Source: Nocardioides marmoribigeumensis (GTDB lineage Bacteria > Actinomycetota > Actinomycetes > Propionibacteriales > Nocardioidaceae). From it: 64,000 nt of DNA. Every line of letters begins with the position of its first letter. Within the stretch, counting starts at the first letter, position 1. The DNA lies in assembly GCF_031458325.1 (NCBI RefSeq), contig NZ_JAVDYG010000001.1:3658001-3722000 (forward strand). The letters are read 5' to 3'. This document shows positions 1-11,350 of the stretch, piece after piece. The notes below the pieces were generated by a model. It saw only the letters and a list, made by a program, of their open reading frames with translations, made no database searches and was not told where the DNA came from. Position numbers and translations under genes: made by a program.

Positions 1-2232
1 GGACGGCCCCGGGCGGGCGACGCCGGCGAGGTAAATCGGCGCGCTGGTGTGCACGAACGGCAGCGGCACGAACTCGGTGAACCCGCCGGTCTCGTCCTGG
101 ATCCGTTGCAGGACCCGCAGGTGGGTCACCCAGTGGTCGGGGCGGTCGACGTGGCCGTACATCATCGTCGCGCTCGAGCGGATGCCCAGCCGGTGCGCGG
201 AGGTGACGACCTCGACCCACGCGCTGGTGGGCAGCTTGCCCTTGGTGAGGATCCACCGGACGTCGTCGTCGAGGATCTCCGCGGCGGTGCCGGGGATCGT
301 GTCGAGACCGGACTCCTTGGCCTTGAGCAGCCAGTCGTGGATCGTCAGGCCGGTGCGCGCGGCGCCGTTGACGACCTCCATCGGGGAGTAGGCGTGCACG
401 TGCATCTCGGGCACGCGACGCTTCACCGCGGCGGCGATGTCGAAGTACGCCGTGCCGGGCATCTCCGGGTCGATGCCGCCCTGCATGCAGACCTCGGTCG
501 CGCCGAGGCGCCAGGCCTCCTCGGCCCGGTCGGCGACCTGGTCCAGCGAGAGCGAGTAGGCGTCGGCGTCGGTGCGCCGCTGGGCGAACGCGCAGAAGCG
601 GCAGCCCGTGTAGCAGACGTTGGTGAAGTTGATGTTGCGGTTGAGCACGTAGGTCACGTCGTCGCCGTTGACCTCGCGGCGCATCGCGTCGGCCAGGCGG
701 CGGACCTCGTCGAGGTCGGTGCCGTCGGCGGTGAACAGCGCTAGCGCGTGCGCGTCGGTCAGCCCGCGCGGGTCGCGCTCGGCCTGGGCCAGGGCGGCGC
801 GGACGTCGGAGCTGAGCCGCTCGGGAGCGGTCGCTGACGCGACCTCCTCGCGCAGGAGCGCCCAGTCGCCGTACACGTCGGAGAAGTCGCCCCGCCGGTC
901 AGCGGTGCGGCCGGTGGTGTCGATCGTCTCGTGGAGGTCGGTGCGCCCCCAGGCGCCGGCGTCCGCCCCGAGGTCAGGCTCCTGCCAGGGCAGCCCGACG
1001 GGGCGTACGCCGTCGCGCAGCAGCCCGGTCTCGTCGGCGAGCGCGGCCACGTGGGGGCGGACGCGGGGGTCGATCCAGGGCTCGCCGGCGCGGGCGTACT
1101 CGGGGTGGACGGTCAGGCGCGGCGTCAACGAGAAGCCGGCCTCGGCGGTGACCTCACGGAGGGTGTCGAGGGAGGGCCAGGGGCGCTCGGGGTTGACGTG
1201 GTCCGGCGTCAGTGGCGAGACGCCGCCCCAGTCGTCGACGCCGGCGGCGAGGAGGTCGCGGCACTCCGACAGGTCGACCAGGTTGGGCGGGGCTTGGATG
1301 CGCATGCGGGGGCCGAGCACGAGGCGGGCGACCGCGACGGCGGCGAGGTAGTCCTCCAGCCCGAGGTCGTCGACGCCACGCATCGCGGTGTCGGGCTTGG
1401 CCCGGAAGTTCTGGATGATCACCTCCTGGACGTGGCCGTACTGGCGCGCCACCCTGCGCAGGGTGAACAGCGACTCGGCGCGCTCGGCCACGGTCTCGCC
1501 GATGCCGACGAGCAGGCCTGTGGTGAACGGGACCGAGAGGCGACCCGCGTCCTCGAGCACGCGGAGCCGGACGGCAGGATTCTTGTCAGGGGAACCAAAA
1601 TGCGGTTGGCCCTTCTCGGTGAAGAGCCGCTCGGACGTGGTCTCGAGCATCATGCCCATCGACGGGGAGACGGGCTTGAGCCGGTTGATCTCCTCCCACG
1701 ACATGACGCCGGGGTTGAGGTGCGGCAGCAGGCCGGTCTCCTCGAGCACGCGCACGGCCATCGCGCGGACGTAGTCGAGGGTCGAGTCGTAGCCCTTCTC
1801 GTCCAGCCATTGCCGGGCCTCGGGCCACCTGTCCTCGGGCCGGTCGCCGAGGGTGAACAGCGCCTCGGCGCACCCGAGCGCGGCGCCCTGGGTCGCGATC
1901 GCGATCACCTCGTCGGGCGAGAGGTAGGGCTCGCGTCCCTCGCGCGCCGCCTGGGCCGGCGTCTCCACGAACGTGCAGTAGTGGCAGCGGTCGCGGCACA
2001 GCCGTGTCAGCGGGATGAAGACCTTGGGGGAGTAGGTCACGACCCCGGGCCGACCGGCGGCCTCCAGGCCCGCGTCACGCACCCGGGCCGCATGGCCCAT
2101 CAGCGTCCGCAGGTCGTCCCCGCGGGCCTGCAGCAGCACCGTCGTCTCGGCCAGGTCGAGCGTCGCCCCGCGGGCCGCGCGAGCCAGCGCGCGGCGTACC
2201 TCGTGGGGGGTCGGTGCGGTCGCGTCTGTCAC
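1..2232 (-). CDS. fbiC: 7,8-didemethyl-8-hydroxy-5-deazariboflavin (FO) synthase, CofG-CofH fusion, C-terminus cut by window
   Basis: This enzyme makes FO, the chromophore of coenzyme F420, from tyrosine and a flavin-pathway pyrimidine through two radical-SAM reactions. The frame is open for 744 codons from a GTG at 2230-2232 to the window edge, so roughly the last 100 residues expected for FbiC are missing. The N-terminal CofG half carries the cluster motif CRDRCHYC (Cys79, Cys83, Cys86). The C-terminal CofH half carries CYTGCRFC (Cys540, Cys544, Cys547). Having both halves in one chain is the actinobacterial arrangement. A TAGGCT box lies six bases before the GTG, which supports this start and a leaderless transcript. 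A patch of A/T-ending codons at residues 209-219 stands out from the surrounding GC-rich codons. Confidence 0.95.
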
Positions 2233-2238
2233 CGGACG

Positions 2239-2244
2239 AGCCTA
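2239..2244 (-). promoter_or_regulatory. -10 box of fbiC (leaderless type)
   Basis: Read on the minus strand, TAGGCT is followed by six bases and then the GTG start. This spacing puts the transcript start at or next to the start codon. No clear -35 is seen. Confidence 0.5.
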
Positions 2245-2300
2245 ACCACGCCACCGGTGGTGCCGGTCGGTGGTCCAGGGAACCCGACCGACCCCGCCCG

Positions 2301-4048
2301 TCAGGCCTGCCAGGAGCGCCAGAGGGCGGCGTAGGACCCGTCGCGGGCGACCAGCTCGTCGTGGGTGCCGATCTCGGAGACCACCCCGTCCTCGACGACG
2401 GCGACGCGGTCGGCGTCGTGGGCGCTGAACAGCCGGTGCGCGATCGCGACGACGGTGCGGCCCTCCAGCACCGCGGCCAGCGAGCGCTCGAGGTGGCGCG
2501 CCTCGCGCGGGTCGACCATCGAGGTCGCCTCGTCGAGCACGAGGGTGTGCGGGTCGACCAGCACCAGCCGCGCGAGCGCGACCTGCTGCACCTGGGCCGG
2601 GCTGAGCCCGCGCCCACCGGAGCCGACGCGGGTGTCGAGCCCGTCGGGGAGCGCGGCGGCCCAGTCCTCGGCGTCGACGGCGGCCAGGGCGCGCCACACC
2701 TCGTCGTCGGAGACCTCCTCGGGGTGGGCGAGCGCGCGACGTTGTCGCGCAGGGTGCCGGCGAAGACGTGGTTCTCCTGCGTCACGAGCGCGACGCGACG
2801 GCGGAGCGAGGGCAGGTCGAGCTCGGTCAACCCGACGTCGCCGACGGTGACCGACCCCGTCCGCGGCGGGTGGATGCCGGCGAGCAGGCGCCCCAAGGTC
2901 GACTTGCCGGCGCCGGAGGGGCCGACCACGGCGAGGCGCTCGCCCACACGGAGGTCGAGGGAGAGACCGTGGAGCACGTCGCGCTCGCCGTCGTAGGCGA
3001 AGCGCACGTCGGTGGCGTCGATCTTGTCGCAGGCGGGCGCGCGCCCCGTCACCACGCGGTCCTGCGGCACCTCGCGGACCCCGAGCAGCCGCGCGAGCGA
3101 GACCGACCCCGTCTGCAGCTCGTCGAGCACCGACATCAGCCGGTCCATCGGGTCGGCGAGCATCTGGACGTAGAGCGTCGCCGCGGTCACCTGCCCGAGG
3201 TCGACGTGACCGCCGACGTAGAGCCAGCCGCCGACCAGCACGGTCGCCGCGGTCGGGACCGCGTGGACGGTCGCCTCGAACACCGGGAAGAACCCCGTGC
3301 GCAGCCACAGCGTGTAGCGCTCCGCGGCGTACGACGACGCGACGTCGCGCGCGATCCGGCGCAGCCGGCGGTCCTCGAGCCGCAGCGCCTCCACCGTGCG
3401 CGCCCCGTCGACCGTCTCGGCCAGCGAGGAGGCGATGAAGGTCCACGACTCGTGCTCGCGGAGGTAGCCGTCGCGGGCGCGGGCGAGGTACCACCGCACC
3501 GTCGCCACCAGGGCGGGGAGGCCGAGGGCCAGCGGCAGGGCGACCCACCAGCCCCCGACGACCAGGGCGGCGCCGACGGTCAGCGCGGTCTGCAGCGTCG
3601 CCACGACCGCCTCGGGCAGCGACCGCTGGGCGGTCCACTGCAGGGCGTCGACGTCACGGGTGGTGCGGGTGACCAGCTCGCCGCTGCCGGCCGTCTCGAC
3701 CGCGCCGAGGGGCATGTCGAGACTGTCCTGCACGAACCCCTCGCGCAGCTCGGCCAGCGTCAGCTCGCCGAAGACGAACCCGCGGTAGCGCGCGGCACGG
3801 GTCAGCACCGTCTGCGCGGTCAGGGCGACGAGCAGCAGCAGGACGGTGCGGTCGACGTACGCCGTCGTGGTGCCGGAGCGGACCGCCTCGACAAGGCCGC
3901 CGATCAGGGCGGGCGCGGCGAGGCCGGCCACTGTCGCCAGGACGTGCAGCACGACGAGCTGTCCGACCAGGCGGCGACGCCGGGAGACCAGGTCGCCGAC
4001 GTAGGCGAGGACGGCCGACGGCTCCGAGACGGGCAGGTGGGTGCTCAC
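2301..4048 (-). pseudogene. ABC exporter half-transporter (TMD-NBD) with intact Walker motifs, interrupted by a frameshift
   Basis: This is the second gene of an ABC exporter pair; its start overlaps the stop of 4045..5754 by four bases. Residues 1 to about 330 form an exporter-type membrane domain. The nucleotide-binding domain follows, with Walker A GPSGAGKST at 376-384, Q-loop Gln424, Walker B TLVLDEATSMVD and H-loop IAHR. The signature is degenerate, LSPAQ instead of LSGGQ. The reading frame breaks at about 2728-2740, just after the NV of the LRDNV motif. The last 143 residues continue in the -1 frame, so one base is missing or two are extra relative to a functional gene. It could be a real mutation or an assembly error in a GC repeat (GCGCGCG). 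Without the break the protein would be about 580 residues, a normal length. Confidence 0.85.
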
Positions 4049-5754
4049 CGGGAGGCCACCTCCTCGCCACGGGTGACGGCCGCGGCGTAGCCCGGGACGT
4101 CGCGCAGCAGCTCGTGGTGGCCGCCCTCGGCGACGACGCGCCCGCCGTCGAGGAACACCACGACGTCGGCGCGGTCCAGGACCAGCGGGCTGGTGGTCGT
4201 GAGCAGCGTGGTGCGACCGCGACGCGCGGACCCCAGCCGAGAAGCGATCCGGGCCTCGGTGTGGGCGTCGACGGCGGAGGTGGGCTCGACCATGACCAGC
4301 ACCTCGGGGTCGGCGAGCAGCGCGCGGGTCAGCACCAGACGCTGCCGCTGGCCGCCGGAGAACGCCCGGCCACGCTCGGTGACCTGCCCGTCGAGCCGGC
4401 CCGGGAGGGCGTCGAGGACGTCCTCGGCCGCCGCGACGTGCAGGGCCTCGAGCAGCGCCGCCTCGCCCCGCTCGTGCAGGTCGAGCTCGTCACGCAGGCG
4501 CCCCGCGAAGAGCACGGCACCCGTGTCGCCGACGACGATGCGCCGCCGCACCTCGGCCAGGGGTACGGCGTCCAGGCGGTCCGCGCCCCAGCTCACCTCG
4601 CCCGGGGCGAAGCGGCCCAGCCGGTCGGCCAGCGCCGCCGCGTCCTCCGGGCGGGTGGAGACCACCGCGGTGAGCAGCCCGGACCGCACCCGGACCCCGG
4701 ACTCGTGGTCGACCAGGTCGCCACCGTCGACAGGGCGCGGGGACGTCGCGACGTCGGACTGCTCCGGCTCGAGGTCGAGCACGCGGCAGACCCGGGCAGC
4801 CGCGACCCGGGCGGAGATCGCCTTGCCCAGCACCTCGGTCGCCGTGCGCAGCGGGATCATCAGGAACGCGGAGTAGCCGTAGAACGCGACCAGCTCGCCC
4901 ACCGTGATCCGCCCCTCGACCGCGAAGCGCGCGCCCAGCCACACCACCACGACGACGAACAGCCCCGGCAGCGCGACCTGCGCGGCGTCGAGGACCGAGT
5001 GGACCCGGCCCACCTGGATGCCGGAGTCGCGCACCCGGGTCGACTCCTCGACGTACCTCCGGTGGAAGACGCGCTCCCCGCCGACCCCGCGCAGGATGCG
5101 CAGCCCCGCGACGATGTCGGCCGCCAGCGCCACCAGCTCGCCGTAGGCCTCGCGCTGCCGGATCGTGCGCTGCTGCAGCGGGCGCATGACGGGCCAGAGG
5201 AGCAGCAGCATCAGGGGCACGCCGACCAGCACGAGCGCGCCGAGGACCGTCGAGGTGCGCAGCAGCACGACCGCGACCAGTACGAAGGACACGACCGAGC
5301 CGGTGCCCCGCGCGGTGACGTCCATCAGCTGCCCGATGCGCGCCATGTCGGCGGTCCCGACCGCGACGACCTCGCCGGTGGAGAGGCGGTGCGGCAGGGT
5401 GCCGCCGAGCCTGACCGCCTGCTGCGAGACCAGCGTCAGCGTGCGGAAGGCGGAGGTCAGGAAGTTCGCGACCGCGCACCGGTGGCGCAGGATGCTGGAC
5501 GCCGCCTGGAGCAGCCCGACCGCGAGCAGCACCAGCGCCATGCGGACCAGCAGACCGGTGTCGCGCGGCACCAGCGCGTGGTCGATGGTCCACCCGACCA
5601 GGGCCGGCACGAGGGCCTGCGTGCACATCCACACCACGCCGTACGCCATGCCGGCCGCGAGGCTCTGCCACTGGCGGCGGGCCAGCCAGAAGAGGTACGA
5701 CCCCGGCCCGCGGGAGTCCGCGGGACCGGGGTCGTCGAGATGTCGTGGCCGCAC
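4045..5754 (-). CDS. ABC exporter half-transporter with degenerate nucleotide-binding domain
   Basis: This 569-residue protein is the partner of 2301..4048 in a probable heterodimeric exporter; the substrate is unknown. The membrane domain spans about residues 20-330. In the nucleotide-binding domain the signature FSGGQRQR is perfect (465-472). The Walker A region (about 361-380) has no GxxGxGKST, the Walker B aspartate is replaced (VLVMVEPTSAVD, 485-496, with Glu490 kept), and the H-loop histidine is absent (TTTSPL). This subunit therefore lends only its signature to the working ATP site formed with the partner's Walker A and B. The start is a GTG; a TAGCCT sequence ends one base before it, so the true start could be further in. 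Confidence 0.9.
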   Translation of the reverse strand: MRPRHLDDPGPADSRGPGSYLFWLARRQWQSLAAGMAYGVVWMCTQALVPALVGWTIDHALVPRDTGLLVRMALVLLAVGLLQAASSILRHRCAVANFLTSAFRTLTLVSQQAVRLGGTLPHRLSTGEVVAVGTADMARIGQLMDVTARGTGSVVSFVLVAVVLLRTSTVLGALVLVGVPLMLLLLWPVMRPLQQRTIRQREAYGELVALAADIVAGLRILRGVGGERVFHRRYVEESTRVRDSGIQVGRVHSVLDAAQVALPGLFVVVVVWLGARFAVEGRITVGELVAFYGYSAFLMIPLRTATEVLGKAISARVAAARVCRVLDLEPEQSDVATSPRPVDGGDLVDHESGVRVRSGLLTAVVSTRPEDAAALADRLGRFAPGEVSWGADRLDAVPLAEVRRRIVVGDTGAVLFAGRLRDELDLHERGEAALLEALHVAAAEDVLDALPGRLDGQVTERGRAFSGGQRQRLVLTRALLADPEVLVMVEPTSAVDAHTEARIASRLGSARRGRTTLLTTTSPLVLDRADVVVFLDGGRVVAEGGHHELLRDVPGYAAAVTRGEEVASR

Positions 5755-5790: not shown

Positions 5791-6084
5791 TCAGTTTCTG
5801 CGCAGGGCCCTGCCCAGGCTGGCGACCAGGCCGACCGCCCCGGCGATGACCAGGACGATCGAGAAGGCGACGCCGCCGTCCCCGACCTGCATCACCCCCT
5901 GGTCGGTGAGCAGCCACAGCAGGGCGACGCCGACGGCGAGCAGCCCCACCACCAGGTAGCCGGTCTGCAGCGGGTGGAAGCCGGGGTGCCGCTCGTCGTC
6001 CGGCTCGACCTCGTGGCTCTGCCACTGCCCGAGGACGGTCGTGTCCTCGGCCTCGAGCGGGGTGGTCTCCTCGTGCTCGGGCAT
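5791..6084 (-). CDS. Small two-TM membrane protein next to the PspC protein
   Basis: The 97-residue product has an acidic N-terminal tail (residues 1-40) and two hydrophobic segments (about 43-62 and 71-90) ending in a basic tail. I do not recognise a family. Its ATG lies one base after the stop of the PspC gene (6086..7366), so the two are very likely cotranscribed and translationally coupled. By context it may be a small accessory of the PspC/toastrack protein, but no motif shows that. Confidence 0.75.
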   Translation of the reverse strand: MPEHEETTPLEAEDTTVLGQWQSHEVEPDDERHPGFHPLQTGYLVVGLLAVGVALLWLLTDQGVMQVGDGGVAFSIVLVIAGAVGLVASLGRALRRN

Positions 6085-6085
6085 G

Positions 6086-7366
6086 TCAGCCCCTCCTCAC
6101 GTCGATGTGGCCGAAGGCCGCGTCCAGGTGGAGCGTCAGCGGAGCGCCGGTGACGCTCGGCGGGCCCTCGTAGGTGCGCCGCACGTCGGTGCCCCACCCG
6201 TCGTGGGTCAGGCCGTCGGGGGTGTCGATCGCGCCGCCGTAGCGGACCTCGGCGTCCACGTCGACGTCGACGTCGCCCGGCACGATCACCACGATCTCGC
6301 CGGCGTTGACGTCGGCGCTGATCGTGCGGCCCGCCAGGGCCGACGGCTCGCTCAGGTCGGTGAGGTCGATCTCGATGCGGCCGGCGGGGACCGAGTAGCT
6401 CGACCTCAGCTGGCTCGTCGTGGTCGGGCGGACCGTGACGTCGCGCGAGCCGTGGTAGGTCGGCTCGCCGACCGCGGTCGCACCGAGCGCGACGAGGGAG
6501 ACCAGACCGAGCAGGACCAGCCCACCGGCCCGCCCGAAGAACGAGCCGACCACGAGCATCCCGCCCACGATCGCCAGGGCGAGGGCGGCGTAGCCCGCGT
6601 CGGGCACGGCGTGGCCGTTGCTGTCGAGCAGCCCCAGCACACCGAGACCGAGCGCCACCAGGGCGAGCGTCGGCATGAACAGCAGGGGGCCGCGGCGCCG
6701 GCGCGCCGGGGGGTACGCCGGCGCGGGGCGCCAGGTGCCCGTCGCCCGGTCGTAGCGGCCGGTGAAGGCGGGAGCCGGGGCGTCGTACGACGGCTGCTCA
6801 GGACCGCCCGCACCGGTCACCCCGGGTGCACCGGTCGCACCGGTCCAGGTCGCCCGCTGCTCGCGCCGCGACTGCCGGACGAGGTGGAAGGCCAGTGCAC
6901 CGACCGCGAGCACGCCGAGGAACCACACGCCGCCGCTGTCCCCGCCGACCCCCGTGGTCAGGGCGATCAGCGCGGCGACGACGAGGGCGACGATCACCAG
7001 GACGTTGCGCGTGGAGTCGTCGCTCGGCACCACCACGTGGCCGTCCCGCTCGTCGGGCACCAGCAGCCACAGCGCGGCGTACAGCAGGATGCCCGAGCCG
7101 CCGAAGAACGTCAGGACGACGAAGATCACCCGCACGAGCAGCGGGTCGACGTCGAGGTGGCGGGCCAGCCCGCCCGCGACGCCCGCGACCTTGCGCTCGG
7201 TGACGCTGCGGCGCAGCGCCCGGTAGTCGCCGAGCGCCGCGGTGTTCATCCCGTCGCGCGGTCCGTCCCCACCCGGACCGGGCGGAGGGCCCGACCGGTC
7301 GCCCGGCGGCGGGGGAGGCGGGGTGCCGGGCGGCGAGGGGGGAGGAGGGGTGACCGTCTCGTTCAT
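6086..7366 (-). CDS. PspC-domain membrane protein with LiaF/toastrack-like C-terminal domain
   Basis: The 426-residue protein has a proline-rich cytoplasmic N-terminus (residues 1-45). A PspC domain follows with the hallmark VAGVAGGLARHLDVDP and a long hydrophobic helix. Several more membrane segments come next, and then a soluble C-terminal domain (about 310-426) rich in short beta-strands, like the LiaF or toastrack fold used in envelope-stress systems. I chose the ATG at 7364-7366, which begins the proline-rich segment; an upstream in-frame ATG would add 25 residues of promoter-region translation. The gene diverges from a PspC-fused sensor kinase over a 142-base gap, so both probably belong to one cell-envelope sensing module. 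The direct ligand is unknown. Confidence 0.85.
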   Translation of the reverse strand: MNETVTPPPPSPPGTPPPPPPGDRSGPPPGPGGDGPRDGMNTAALGDYRALRRSVTERKVAGVAGGLARHLDVDPLLVRVIFVVLTFFGGSGILLYAALWLLVPDERDGHVVVPSDDSTRNVLVIVALVVAALIALTTGVGGDSGGVWFLGVLAVGALAFHLVRQSRREQRATWTGATGAPGVTGAGGPEQPSYDAPAPAFTGRYDRATGTWRPAPAYPPARRRRGPLLFMPTLALVALGLGVLGLLDSNGHAVPDAGYAALALAIVGGMLVVGSFFGRAGGLVLLGLVSLVALGATAVGEPTYHGSRDVTVRPTTTSQLRSSYSVPAGRIEIDLTDLSEPSALAGRTISADVNAGEIVVIVPGDVDVDVDAEVRYGGAIDTPDGLTHDGWGTDVRRTYEGPPSVTGAPLTLHLDAAFGHIDVRRG

Positions 7367-7508
7367 GGCTCCACCGTGGCCCTTCCCTACGCGTGCGCAC
7401 CATCGGTGACGCCCCTGATCCTGCCCGGGGGAGGATGCCACGGACTCAGGGTGAGGTCAGGGTCGCCACTCATGGGTCAGGGGCTCGCGCTCTGCGACGA
7501 TTGAGCCG

Positions 7509-8870
7509 ATGGAGCAGACGAGCCAGACCACCCACCAGCCCCCGGCCTCCGGCCCGGCGGGCTCGGCGGGCTCGCCGGTGTGGGTGCCGCGCAAGGCGCA
7601 CCGCAGCCGTCGCGACAGCTACCTCGGCGGCGTGGCCGGGGGGCTCGCGGAGCACCTGGGCGTCGACCCGGTGCTGGTCCGCGGCTTCTTCGTGCTCTCC
7701 ACGCTGGCGGCGTTCGGGCTCGTGCTCTACCTGGCGCTGTGGGTGATGCTGCCGATGGACAACCGGCCCGAGCCCTCCAGCCCGGGTCTCGAGTCCGCCA
7801 CCCGCAGGGGCCTGCGACCGGGGCGCCCCGACTCACGTCGCCGCGACACCGGCATCCTCCTCGCGCTGGCCGCGGTGGTCTTCGGCGTCGCCGGGCTCAC
7901 CGACGTCGCGACCGGCAGCCTGCACCTGCTCTGGCCCGGCGCCTTCGCCGTCCTTGGTGTCTCCGTCCTCTGGCTGCAGGCCGACGAGGCCCAGCGCGAG
8001 CGGTGGCGCCACGCGGGCGAGCGCGTCGGGATCGCCCGCATCCTGCTCGGCAGCGGCGGCGCCGCGGCCTGGGCGCGCCTGGTCGCCGGGGCCGGCCTGC
8101 TGGTCACGGCGCTGGTCATCTTCGCCGCCCAGTCCGGCCAGGTCACCGTCGCCCGCGACATGGTGGTCGCCGGGATCCTCGGCATGGGAGGCCTGGCGAT
8201 CGTGCTCGGCCCGTGGCTGTTCAGCCTGGCCTCCGAGCTCACCGACGAGCGCGCCGAGCGCATCCGCACCCAGGAGCGGGCGGACGTCGCCGCGCACCTG
8301 CACGACTCCGTGCTCCAGACCCTCGCGATGATCCAGCGCAGCTCCGGGGACCCGCCGACGGTCGCCCGCCTCGCCCGCGCGCAGGAGCGCGACCTCCGGC
8401 AGTGGCTGTACGGCGACCAGGCGGCTCCCGAGGGCACGCTCGCCGCCTCGCTGAGTGCGGTGGCGGCCGAGGCCGAGGACCTGCACGGCGTGCCGGTCGA
8501 GGTCGTCACGGTGGGCGACCGGCCCACGACGGCCGAGCTCGTCCCGCTGGTCGGCGCGACCCGCGAGGCCGTGCTCAACGCCGTGCGCCACTCCGGTGCA
8601 CCGCGGGTCGACGTCTACGCCGAGATGGCCGGCGACCACGTGGAGGTGTTCGTCCGCGACCGGGGCCGGGGGTTCGACCTGGCGGCCGTGCCCCAGGACC
8701 GGCAGGGTGTCCGGGGCAGCGTCATCGGCCGCATGGAGCGCCACGGCGGCAGCGCCGAGGTCCGCAGTTCCCCCGAGGGTGGCACCGAGGTCCGGCTCTC
8801 GATGCCGGTCCGCACCCAGCCCCAGCAGCAGGTTCCCGAGCAGGCCCACGACCAGGAGGAGACCCGATGA
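7509..8870 (+). CDS. PspC-fused sensor histidine kinase (HisKA_3/NarL class)
   Basis: The 453-residue sensor begins with a PspC domain (about 28-85, core GGVAGGLAEHLGVDP). A set of membrane helices follows, two of them around 115-145 and 190-230. The dimerisation and phospho-acceptor helix has HLHDSVLQ, with His265 the likely phosphorylated residue. An HATPase domain ends the protein, with the N-box EAVLNAVRHSG and the G-box DRGRGFD. It overlaps the response regulator by the ATGA tetranucleotide. The N-terminal PspC domain replaces a periplasmic sensor, so it probably senses membrane stress or binds the divergently encoded PspC/toastrack protein. I see no obvious ribosome binding site before the ATG. 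Confidence 0.9.
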   Translation: MEQTSQTTHQPPASGPAGSAGSPVWVPRKAHRSRRDSYLGGVAGGLAEHLGVDPVLVRGFFVLSTLAAFGLVLYLALWVMLPMDNRPEPSSPGLESATRRGLRPGRPDSRRRDTGILLALAAVVFGVAGLTDVATGSLHLLWPGAFAVLGVSVLWLQADEAQRERWRHAGERVGIARILLGSGGAAAWARLVAGAGLLVTALVIFAAQSGQVTVARDMVVAGILGMGGLAIVLGPWLFSLASELTDERAERIRTQERADVAAHLHDSVLQTLAMIQRSSGDPPTVARLARAQERDLRQWLYGDQAAPEGTLAASLSAVAAEAEDLHGVPVEVVTVGDRPTTAELVPLVGATREAVLNAVRHSGAPRVDVYAEMAGDHVEVFVRDRGRGFDLAAVPQDRQGVRGSVIGRMERHGGSAEVRSSPEGGTEVRLSMPVRTQPQQQVPEQAHDQEETR

Positions 8871-9517
8871 GCCCGGTGACCGTGGTGGTCGTCGACGACC
8901 ACGCCATGTTCCGCTCCGGTGTGCGGGCCGAGCTCGCGTCGTACCCCGCTCGCGTGACGGTGGTCGCCGAGGCCGAGGACGTCGACTCCGCGGTCGAGCA
9001 GGTCCGCGCCCACCAGCCCGACGTCGTGCTGCTCGACGTGCACCTGCCCGGCGGCGGGGGAGTCGAGGTGATGCGCCGCGCCGCGCCGCGCTGCCCGGAC
9101 ACCCGCTTCCTGGCGCTGTCGGTCTCCGACGCGGCCGAGGACGTGATCGGCACGATCCGGGGCGGCGCCCGGGGCTACGTCACCAAGACCATCACCGGGC
9201 CCGAGCTGGTCGACGCCATCGACCGGGTCTCGATCGGCGACGCGGTGTTCTCGCCGCGCCTGGCCGGCTTCGTGCTGGACGCCTTCGCCGGCTCGATCGC
9301 CGTCGCCCAGGTCGACGAGGACCTCGACCGGCTCACCGAGCGGGAGCGCGAGGTGATGCGGCTGATCGCGCGGGGCTATGCCTACAAGGAGGTCGCCTCC
9401 GAGTTGTTCATCTCGGTCAAGACCGTCGAGACCCACGTCTCCAGCGTCCTGCGCAAGCTCCAGCTGTCCTCGCGTCACGAGCTCACCCGCTGGGCCAGCG
9501 ACCGCCGTCTGCTCTGA
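8867..9517 (+). CDS. NarL/LuxR-family response regulator, partner of the PspC-fused kinase
   Basis: The 216-residue protein has a receiver domain with acidic pocket Asp10-Asp11, phosphorylatable Asp57 (LLDVHLPG) and the conserved lysine in YVTKT. A LuxR-type helix-turn-helix follows (LTEREREVMRLIARGYAYKEVASELFISVKTVETHVSSVLRKL, in two parts about 148-195). Its start codon overlaps the kinase stop, the usual coupling for a cognate pair. It most likely controls the divergent PspC operon and its own operon; no operator was identified in the 7367-7508 gap. Confidence 0.93.
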   Translation: MSPVTVVVVDDHAMFRSGVRAELASYPARVTVVAEAEDVDSAVEQVRAHQPDVVLLDVHLPGGGGVEVMRRAAPRCPDTRFLALSVSDAAEDVIGTIRGGARGYVTKTITGPELVDAIDRVSIGDAVFSPRLAGFVLDAFAGSIAVAQVDEDLDRLTEREREVMRLIARGYAYKEVASELFISVKTVETHVSSVLRKLQLSSRHELTRWASDRRLL

Positions 9518-9574: not shown

Positions 9575-11350
9575 ATGAGTCCGGGGAGCGCGCACCAGTC
9601 CACCGACCAGATCCGCACCGTCCTGGTCGCCGGCGCGACCGGCTTCGTCGGCCGGCGCCTGTGCCCCGCGCTGGAGGACAAGGGCTACGAGGTGCGCGCG
9701 ATGACCCGCCACCCCGAGACCTACTCGGGGCCGGGTGAGGCGGTGTTCGGCGACGTCCACGACGCCTCGACGCTCACCGACGCGCTCAAGGGCGTCGACG
9801 CGGCGTACTACCTCGTGCACTCGCTGGACTCGCCCGACTTCGAGCGGCTCGACCGCGAGGCGGCCCAGGCGTTCGGCCGGGCGGCGGCCGAGGCCGGGGT
9901 CCGGCGCATCGTCTACCTCGGCGGCCTCGGCTCCGACGAGGACATCCTCTCGGCCCACCTGCGCAGCCGTCGCGAGGTGGAGAAGCACCTCGGCGACGCC
10001 GGGGTGCCCGTCACCTCGCTGCGGGCCGGCATCGTCATCGGCCACGACGGGCTGTCGTGGGAGATGACCCGCCAGCTCGTCGAGCGGCTCCCGATGATGA
10101 TCACCCCGCGCTGGGTCAGGACGCGCACCCAGCCGGTCGCCCTGAGCGACGTCGTCCGCTACCTCGTCGCCGTCCTCGACGTGCCCGAGACCTCCGGCCG
10201 ACCGCTCGAGGTGGGCGGCCCCGACGTGCTGTCCTACGCCGAGATGATGCGCCGCGTCGCACGCCACCAGGGCCGCACCATCCTCGTCCTGCCGGTCCCC
10301 GTCCTCTCGCCCCACCTGTCCTCGCACTGGCTCAACCTGGTCACCGACGTCGATACCGCCGCCGGCCGCTCCCTGGTCGACTCGATGGTCAACGAGGTCG
10401 TGGTCAACGACCACACGCTCGAGCGGCTGGTCCCGCTGGACCTGCGCACCTTCGACGAGGCGATCGGGGAGGCCTTCGAGGAGCGCGAGCGCGAGCTCGC
10501 CCAGGCCAGCGGGTGGAAGGCGCGCCTGCGCGCCAAGCTCCCGATGTCCCTGTCCTACAAGGTGCCGATCCGGCACGAGGAGTCCGACGCCGTACGCCGG
10601 CACCGGCGCCGGGTGGTCGCCGGCACGTCCCTGGTCGGTGCGGGCCTGCTCGGCTACGGCCTGAGCACCAAGCCCGGCTCGAAGGCGTTCTACGGCGCCA
10701 CGCTCGCCACCGCCGGCATCTACACCGCCGGGGGGCTGGCCTCCGGCCCCCTCCACCTGGGCTGGATCCAGCTGCAGGACCGGTCGCTCAATCGCCCGAT
10801 CATCACCCCGATCCTCACCGGCGCGGGTGCCTTCGGCGTCTTCTACGTCGGCGCCCACGTCGTCAAGCTCGTGCCGCCGCTGGGCAAGGCGGTTGCCACC
10901 GTCCTCCAGTTCGCCGACGAGGGCGACGAGAAGCTGCTCTACCTCACCACCCTGTCCAACGGGGTCGCCGAGGAGATCTTCTTCCGCGGCGCGGTCTACG
11001 CCGCCCTGCAGGACCTGCACCCCACGCTGACCAGCACCGGTGTCTACATGGTCGCCACGATCCCGACGCGCAACCCGATGCTGGTCTTCGCAGCCGGCCT
11101 CATGGGCCTGCTCTGGGGGGCCCAGCGACGCGCCAGCAACGGGCTCCAGGCGCCGGTCCTGACCCACCTCACCTGGTCCACCCTGATGCTGCGCTACCTC
11201 CCGCCCGTCTTCGCCGACGTCGTGCCCGAGCAGACCCGCGGCGCCCGCGCCGAGGTCGCGCGGCACCAGCCCCGCGCGGTGCGCGCCGTGTCGGCGGCCG
11301 TGGAAGCCCCCACCACCGCTCCGGGGCTGCTGCGCCGCTGGCTACGCTGA
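9575..11350 (+). CDS. Fusion of an NAD(P)-binding atypical SDR domain to a CPBP-like membrane domain
   Basis: Residues 1 to about 300 form a Rossmann-fold atypical SDR: the nucleotide-binding motif is VLVAGATGFVGRRL, followed by typical NmrA/epimerase segments. From about residue 340 the protein becomes hydrophobic, with several membrane helices. It then shows an EEIFFRG motif (Glu466, Glu467, Arg471) and a later LTHLTWS (His531), the first and last motifs of CPBP (CAAX-protease-like) membrane proteins. The middle FxxxH motif expected of an active CPBP peptidase is not obvious: YMVAT occupies that place. The membrane half may therefore not be proteolytic. The total of 591 residues is one uninterrupted frame. 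Its substrate is unknown. Confidence 0.8.
   Translation: MSPGSAHQSTDQIRTVLVAGATGFVGRRLCPALEDKGYEVRAMTRHPETYSGPGEAVFGDVHDASTLTDALKGVDAAYYLVHSLDSPDFERLDREAAQAFGRAAAEAGVRRIVYLGGLGSDEDILSAHLRSRREVEKHLGDAGVPVTSLRAGIVIGHDGLSWEMTRQLVERLPMMITPRWVRTRTQPVALSDVVRYLVAVLDVPETSGRPLEVGGPDVLSYAEMMRRVARHQGRTILVLPVPVLSPHLSSHWLNLVTDVDTAAGRSLVDSMVNEVVVNDHTLERLVPLDLRTFDEAIGEAFEERERELAQASGWKARLRAKLPMSLSYKVPIRHEESDAVRRHRRRVVAGTSLVGAGLLGYGLSTKPGSKAFYGATLATAGIYTAGGLASGPLHLGWIQLQDRSLNRPIITPILTGAGAFGVFYVGAHVVKLVPPLGKAVATVLQFADEGDEKLLYLTTLSNGVAEEIFFRGAVYAALQDLHPTLTSTGVYMVATIPTRNPMLVFAAGLMGLLWGAQRRASNGLQAPVLTHLTWSTLMLRYLPPVFADVVPEQTRGARAEVARHQPRAVRAVSAAVEAPTTAPGLLRRWLR

Follow-up and report, generated by a model that had tools for sequence, protein, structure and literature searches.

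How could a histidine kinase with hardly any residues predicted outside the membrane be informed of damage to the cell envelope? The question is raised by four genes at 5791-9517 in a 64,000-nucleotide stretch of the genome of Nocardioides marmoribigeumensis (the whole stretch is called the window, and coordinates are positions within it unless marked as genome positions), which encode a 97-residue protein, a PspC-toastrack protein, a divergent PspC-histidine kinase and a LuxR-type regulator. The frames and coordinates given in an earlier sequence-only reading of this DNA hold, including the 142-base gap (7367-7508) bracketed by the divergent ATGs:

5791-6084, minus strand: small protein of 97 residues with two predicted membrane helices
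6086-7366, minus strand: PspC-toastrack protein, 426 residues from its ATG, probable kinase inhibitor (EsrI/LiaF-like)
7509-8870, plus strand: PspC-histidine kinase, 453 residues, with PspC, a HisKA_3-like DHp and HATPase_c
8867-9517, plus strand: LuxR/NarL-type response regulator, 216 residues, with a receiver (6-118) and GerE (155-210)

One base separates the toastrack stop from the start of the small gene, the regulator start overlaps the kinase stop via ATGA, and an alternative longer, GTG-started frame of the toastrack gene reaches 7441.

Our answer is that the locus is probably a cell-envelope stress circuit of the Esr/Lia type, in which kinase, inhibitor and operator would form a loop. 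It is an ordinary Nocardioides-like member of a described actinobacterial kind, and its core layout has already been published. Ravi et al. (2024; PMC11237479) describe the divergent layout in Actinobacteria as a pspA-free Lia-like system (AIJ13865.1/AIJ13866.1), in which PspC, LiaF-LiaI-TM and a kinase with REC-HTH have a promoter region in common with a divergent gene for PspC plus transmembrane (TM) segments (plus toastrack). The window locus has the same traits, namely a PspC-kinase with a REC-HTH partner, a divergent PspC/TM/toastrack gene and no pspA, and the sequence-only reading, which treated the arrangement as unexplained, is superseded on this point.

Domains, known relatives and conservation

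The two membrane proteins carry clear Pfam matches to PspC (E 2.8e-23 and 4.2e-18). Three PspC matches exist in the 4.44 Mb genome and two of them belong to the locus; the third (genome 1142150-1142317, plus strand) lies outside the window, away from the locus, in an open frame of 68 residues. PspA is matched once in the genome, at 161610-162299 (genome), far from the locus at about 3.665 Mb, and a Pfam scan together with the genome PspA search found no pspA/LiaH gene among the locus proteins.

In the kinase, HATPase_c is matched by Pfam at E 5.5e-10, and HisKA_3 reaches 16.6 of the 24 bits needed, below the Pfam cut-off. H265, D266, N357, D384, G386 and G388 are invariant across 35 aligned kinases, and the nearest solved chains include VraS, DesK, DevS and DosT, with VraS (4gt8) the nearest at E 6.7e-8. 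At E up to 1, Pfam gives the kinase no HAMP match, and the NCBIfam model Strep_LiaS scores 28.8 bits against a cut-off of 450. The regulator matches Response_reg (1.8e-20) and GerE (1.3e-19) in Pfam, and D57, counted from the sequence, is its expected phosphate acceptor.

The C-terminal domain of the divergent protein matches LiaF-like_C weakly when that protein is taken alone (E 0.024, under the Pfam cut-off). Three results settle its identity. Of 42 aligned orthologues, 34 match PF09922 with E no higher than 0.1, the best at 3.3e-9; a profile of the 42 orthologues finds PDB 4QRK at E 3e-8; and the predicted domain at 306-426 superposes on 4QRK over 109 residues at 2.9 A (Z 9.7), with Foldseek giving E 8.3e-3 and probability 0.99 for the toastrack model. 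Block values of the predicted local distance difference test in the AlphaFold2 model are 87-97 over 311-426, and Ravi et al. (2024; PMC11237479) cite 4QRK as one of two entries that exemplify the toastrack fold. By orthologue profile and by predicted fold the domain is a real LiaF-type toastrack, as the sequence-only reading had proposed. VIA-align also gave matches beyond 4QRK, mostly to membrane hairpins of other proteins, and these were left unused.

Two known systems are close. LiaFSR/VraTSR of Firmicutes has, like the window locus, a LiaF-like C-terminal domain and a kinase core of the LiaS/VraS/DesK type, and the PF09922 toastrack in the third protein is a LiaFSR trait shared through the orthologues, the window protein alone being below cut-off. 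In contrast to the single operon in Firmicutes, the window genes are divergent and PspC is present in both membrane proteins; the window kinase also differs from LiaFSR in having no HAMP match and the locus in having no PspA/LiaH gene. The second system is EsrISR of Corynebacterium glutamicum (esrI, cg0706; esrS, cg0707), whose regulator is given as Cg0709 in PMC3353115 but whose genes are given as cg0706-0708 in PMC10963414. A published table of EsrS/EsrR (Cg0707, Cg0709; PMC3353115) lists PspC at 47-107, five TM segments, HisKA_3 and a LuxR regulator. As in the window, a PspC-fused five-TM kinase with HisKA_3 and HATPase_c is thus paired with a LuxR-type regulator. EsrI is described as inhibiting EsrSR, and its gene is itself in the Esr regulon, activated by bacitracin and vancomycin (PMC6975037); stress activation of EsrISR is also reported in PMC9960051. 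More generally, of the PspC proteins of actinobacteria that exceed 300 residues, more than half carry a kinase domain, with EsrISR cited (PMC9239133). The likeness to EsrISR concerns the domain layout of kinase and regulator and the described role of EsrI, the window locus being known from its sequence, and by this analogy it supports the envelope-stress circuit that the sequence-only reading had suggested.

Conservation was examined in 40 named relatives, mainly Nocardioides, together with Actinopolymorpha, Streptacidiphilus, Streptomyces and a few metagenome-assembled genomes (MAGs). By tblastn the regulator is matched in 40/40 and the toastrack protein in 38/40 (all except L040 and L042), with the match spanning the PspC part only in Streptomyces and Streptacidiphilus. 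Scripted placement of open reading frames (ORFs) missed the toastrack ORF in 8/40 (L005, L013, L022, L026, L034, L035, L040, L042). Across the phylum, PspC was found in 58/119 genomes and a back-to-back PspC pair in 26/119, the window's genome included; a convergent PspC pair occurs in none of the 119. The 25 divergent-pair loci apart from the window's genome form the phylum set used below. Kinase and regulator are present in 25/25 of these loci and a toastrack-type domain in 23/25 at E up to 0.01, with E-values reaching 5e-4 (L093) and 3e-3 (L095); the two exceptions are L077, which is cut by the contig end, and L084. A two-helix protein of 63-153 residues lies directly 3' of the toastrack gene in 20/23 scored loci, so that the co-occurrence of the four genes, named earlier as a check, is borne out. 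An extra short PspC gene is seen in L094 (105 residues) and L074 (84 residues), next to the toastrack gene or immediately behind the small one. The locus is real: with its conservation in the 40 named relatives and across the 25 phylum loci, chance is unlikely to account for it.

The shared membrane part and the side of the toastrack domain

The two membrane proteins are laid out as follows, helix limits being approximate:

PspC-histidine kinase: PspC 28-83; helices ~115-135, 141-157, 185-208 and 215-235; HisKA_3-like DHp with H265; HATPase_c 348-435
PspC-toastrack protein: PspC 50-106; helices ~118-139, 146-165, 230-249, 256-276 and 282-299; toastrack 306-426

According to the structure model and hydropathy, the membrane part of the kinase consists of the PspC region followed by four further helices. 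Its outside loops are predicted at only 3-6 residues, by the same two lines of evidence, and therefore leave no room for an outside ligand domain. The earlier suggestion of a circuit without a periplasmic ligand domain is supported for the kinase, and it may fail for the partner, whose toastrack domain may be extracytoplasmic.

PspC is the strongest part common to kinase and partner (hhalign E 2.2e-29). When PspC is removed, the membrane parts of the toastrack protein (42 sequences) and the kinase (35) still align in hhalign at 95.8% with E 7.5e-9, against 0.4% for reversed controls, and the first hairpins alone align at 96.0%, well above controls. Judged by these alignments, the kinase and the toastrack protein are built on a common membrane part. 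The sequence-only reading had proposed that PspC-PspC contact may pass the signal, which is a hypothesis still. Since the likeness runs past PspC into the following helices, any contact between the two could use more than PspC, and the common part would suit the kinase-partner pairing that we infer.

The side of the membrane on which the toastrack domain lies was read from lysine and arginine (K/R) in the loops. In the kinase family, K/R is present in loop 1 (32/35), loop 3 (35/35) and the stretch after helix 4 (35/35), and is less frequent in loops 2 (7/35) and 4 (13/35). The toastrack family has K/R in the N-tail, loop 3 and loop 5 in 42/42, in loop 1 in 29/42, in loop 2 in 11/42 and in loop 4 in 7/42. 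Its fifth helix (282-299), which follows the positive loop 5, has K/R in 0/42 and a mean hydropathy of 2.14. As the kinase must end inside after helix 4 and the partner has one extra charge-free helix, the toastrack domain is predicted to lie outside the membrane.

This prediction departs from Ravi et al. (2024; PMC11237479), who place the toastrack inside. In the corresponding explanation, which we consider rather unlikely for this family, an intracellular toastrack would act as a sub-membrane platform that gathers signalling partners, PspC would sense a membrane-proximal signal, and the partner need not inhibit the kinase. The arguments of Ravi et al. from domain contexts speak for it, as does the rank of PspC as the strongest shared part. 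The topology of the family speaks for the outside instead, with the toastrack opposite the positive loops 3 and 5. Acidic residues also outnumber basic ones in the domain (mean D+E 20.4 against K+R 9.1), and PMC9239133 describes LiaG's related DUF4097 domain as extracellular. Several points count against the outward placement and the shared membrane part in turn, in addition to the published argument for an intracellular toastrack. In the toastrack family the loop 1 that is predicted inside carries a net acidic charge (mean D+E 4.2, K+R 1.3), the topology was derived from hydropathy and charge using segment limits set by hand, and the membrane parts of both structure models have low confidence. 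The second hairpins align at 60.3%, under the 74.0% reached by a reversed control of another pair, and a second hairpin common to kinase and partner is suggestive only, not proven on its own.

The small protein may be a further component of the circuit, as the sequence-only reading had suggested, and its conservation in the phylum loci is in line with this. Its helices lie at about 41-60 and 71-89, with both termini predicted inside, and it has no Pfam match of its own, PF18917 and PF22570 included. The start of the small ORF in the phylum loci ranges from 14 bases upstream to 1 base downstream of the toastrack stop (50 bases downstream in L092); for this, the closest ATG or GTG in a span of 30 bases upstream to 60 downstream of the stop was taken, a choice that favours short gaps. 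No small two-helix protein follows the regulator in any of the 25 loci. Among 297 window ORFs, a profile of 20 phylum small proteins puts the 97-residue protein first (E 1.7e-4), the kinase second (E 0.01) and the toastrack protein third (E 0.073). In the named relatives this profile matches frames at the place of the small gene in 36/40 at E 0.003 or better, position and count being judged by eye. Within a broad alignment of 21 members, PF22570 (LiaF-TM) matches 5 and PF18917 (LiaI-LiaF-like_TM1) matches 1 at E up to 0.01; in the first alignment, of 22 members, the counts are 2 and 3 at E up to 0.1. The 97-residue protein is thus a hairpin of LiaI/LiaF-TM-like shape and a candidate fourth component, not a proven family member. 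It aligns with hairpin 2 of the toastrack protein at 89.4% in the mainly Nocardioides alignment and at 68.8% in the phylum alignment. Because the reversed control of small protein against kinase hairpin 2 is the one that reached 74.0%, we regard common descent of this protein and the membrane hairpins as suggestive only. Long ORFs in L034 and L035 match the small-protein profile strongly and looked like fusions to the toastrack protein; these are frame extensions, and a fusion was rejected because PspC and toastrack lie outside that frame.

The intergenic region and the surroundings of the locus

Between the divergent genes, a paired palindrome of the form TCRGGG-N4-CCCYGA accompanies a promoter-like element:

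7403-7418, no strand assigned: candidate operator site A, TCGGTGACGCCCCTGA, with one mismatch to TCRGGG-N4-CCCYGA and its near edge 37 bases ahead of the ATG of the toastrack gene
7446-7451, no strand assigned: additional half-site TCAGGG, placed 11 bases ahead of the same hexamer in site B to form a direct repeat
7457-7472, no strand assigned: candidate operator site B, TCAGGGTCGCCACTCA, with two mismatches and its near edge 37 bases ahead of the ATG of the kinase gene
7493-7501, plus strand: -10-like element TGCGACGAT, putative promoter part, 7 bases between it and the kinase ATG

The pattern was counted in 39 intergenic regions, one from the window and 38 from relatives (L040 and L042, which are without a divergent partner, were left out), and in the 25 phylum regions. 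Exact copies occur in 25 of the 39 regions and copies with at most one mismatch in 34, against means of 0.03 and 0.69 in dinucleotide shuffles; the corresponding phylum counts are 3 and 15, against 0.02 and 0.68. The 39 regions come from related genomes and are not independent events, which makes the phylum set the fairer test; mononucleotide shuffles were used only in the first k-mer looks. For paired sites with at most two mismatches the distance is 54 bases in the window, 54-55 in 16 relatives of the Nocardioides group and 66-68 in 6 relatives. Among the phylum loci they are 42-44 apart in 9/25, with single loci at 46 (L089), 52 (L097) and 53; the distance is 11 in L075, and L009 has no second site within two mismatches. 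These spacings were counted by eye, and the shuffle control covers occurrence, not spacing.

The -10-like element TGNGACGAT is present in 33/39 intergenic regions, and a leaderless start of the kinase transcript is possible. If transcription starts at the kinase ATG, site B is centred near -44.5. A centre near -44.5 is a usual place for an activator site. We read the palindrome as a candidate operator of the regulator. That another regulator binds it, or that the palindromes are promoter parts, seems quite improbable, since they are kept with the locus in two genome sets, often in two copies with recurring spacings, and the regulator is their constant neighbour. The genome counts bear on both explanations. 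Strict palindromes number 6 genome-wide (2 in the reversed control) with none at the locus, which, like the sequence basis of the operator call, leaves some room for another binder; the TGA-half form with at most one mismatch gives 79 strand-wise matches against 43 in the reversed control, so that the pattern is rare elsewhere in the genome. Twenty genome sites were picked by eye for their likeness to those at the locus; 6 were scored intergenic and the other 14 fall within likely genes. The one nearest a gene start, at 3178545 (genome), may, judging by eye, overlap the end of the upstream frame, and the gene after it has no Pfam match. With the pattern outside the locus near background, no second operator target in the genome is claimed. 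The accessible literature on LiaF topology, the palindrome motif or EsrR binding yielded nothing on an operator of the regulator, and the available text of Ravi et al. (2024; PMC11237479) has no mention that we found of an operator or of a small gene after the toastrack gene. In the accessible literature on such systems we likewise found none of the small fourth gene, the paired palindrome and the outward toastrack, all of which may nevertheless be in print.

Other genes flank the locus. At 9575-11350 (plus strand), 57 bases 3' of the regulator, starts a 591-residue protein with an NAD(P)-binding/NmrA-like domain (PF13460) and a CAAX-protease-like membrane domain (PF02517). Two adjacent frames at 2075-5754 (minus strand) lie downstream of the small gene. 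The nearer (4045-5754) encodes an ABC transporter half-protein whose relatives, at 55-56% identity, adjoin the same locus in L005 and L007; the farther (2075-4048) is ABC-like by eye.

The proposed circuit and its place in Actinobacteria

In the Esr/Lia-type circuit that we favour, the kinase, which has no outside domain, would rely on its membrane part for sensing. In the resting state, the PspC-toastrack protein would pair with the kinase in the membrane and hold it off, and the toastrack domain, probably facing outward, would read envelope damage. Stress would break this pairing, allowing the kinase to autophosphorylate H265, from which the phosphate would pass to D57 of the regulator receiver. 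A dimer of the phosphorylated regulator would then bind both intergenic palindromes and raise both transcripts, and the additional inhibitor made would end the response. The small two-helix protein, produced together with the inhibitor, may be a membrane accessory of the inhibitor-kinase complex. The gene content, the domains, their conservation, the shared membrane part and the conserved palindromes are observed at the locus and its relatives; stress induction and the inhibitory role are carried over from the experiments on EsrISR. The membrane pairing, the outward toastrack, the operator function and the role of the small protein are deductions.

A divergent membrane protein that protects the membrane as an effector, with the kinase working alone, is an unlikely alternative to this inhibitor role. 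In its favour, its gene adjoins the same likely operator as the kinase, and the one PspA gene elsewhere in the genome could be recruited. EsrI, the presumed counterpart in the studied relative, is described as an inhibitor (PMC6975037), and a membrane part in common with the kinase fits direct pairing.

Some loci and sites run counter to the favoured circuit. L084 keeps kinase and regulator with a divergent PspC protein of 183 residues that has neither a toastrack match nor the palindrome. L040 and L042, actinomycete MAGs (L042 a Propionicimonas), have kinase and regulator with no divergent partner detected. No small ORF was found in L080, L087 (near a contig end) and L096 among the 23 toastrack loci, and the two mismatches of site B in the window are a level reached by shuffles in about 8/39 regions.

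A bolder version of the Esr/Lia-type circuit can be put forward tentatively. The circuit would be a four-part complex made from copies of one membrane module, with PspC and helix hairpins common to kinase and inhibitor and the small protein as a free single hairpin of related type; the fifth helix of the inhibitor would turn the toastrack outward as an outside sensor read by helix exchange between the similar modules, and the regulator would close the loop via the phylum-wide paired palindrome.

The layout is widespread in Actinobacteria, as its presence in 26/119 sampled genomes indicates, and in the literature accessible to us experimental work on such PspC-fused kinases was found only for C. 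glutamicum. The side of the toastrack-type domain is stated differently in PMC11237479 and PMC9239133, and the family represented by the window predicts the outside. If the paired palindrome is the operator of the regulator, the prediction of its regulon would be opened across the phylum.

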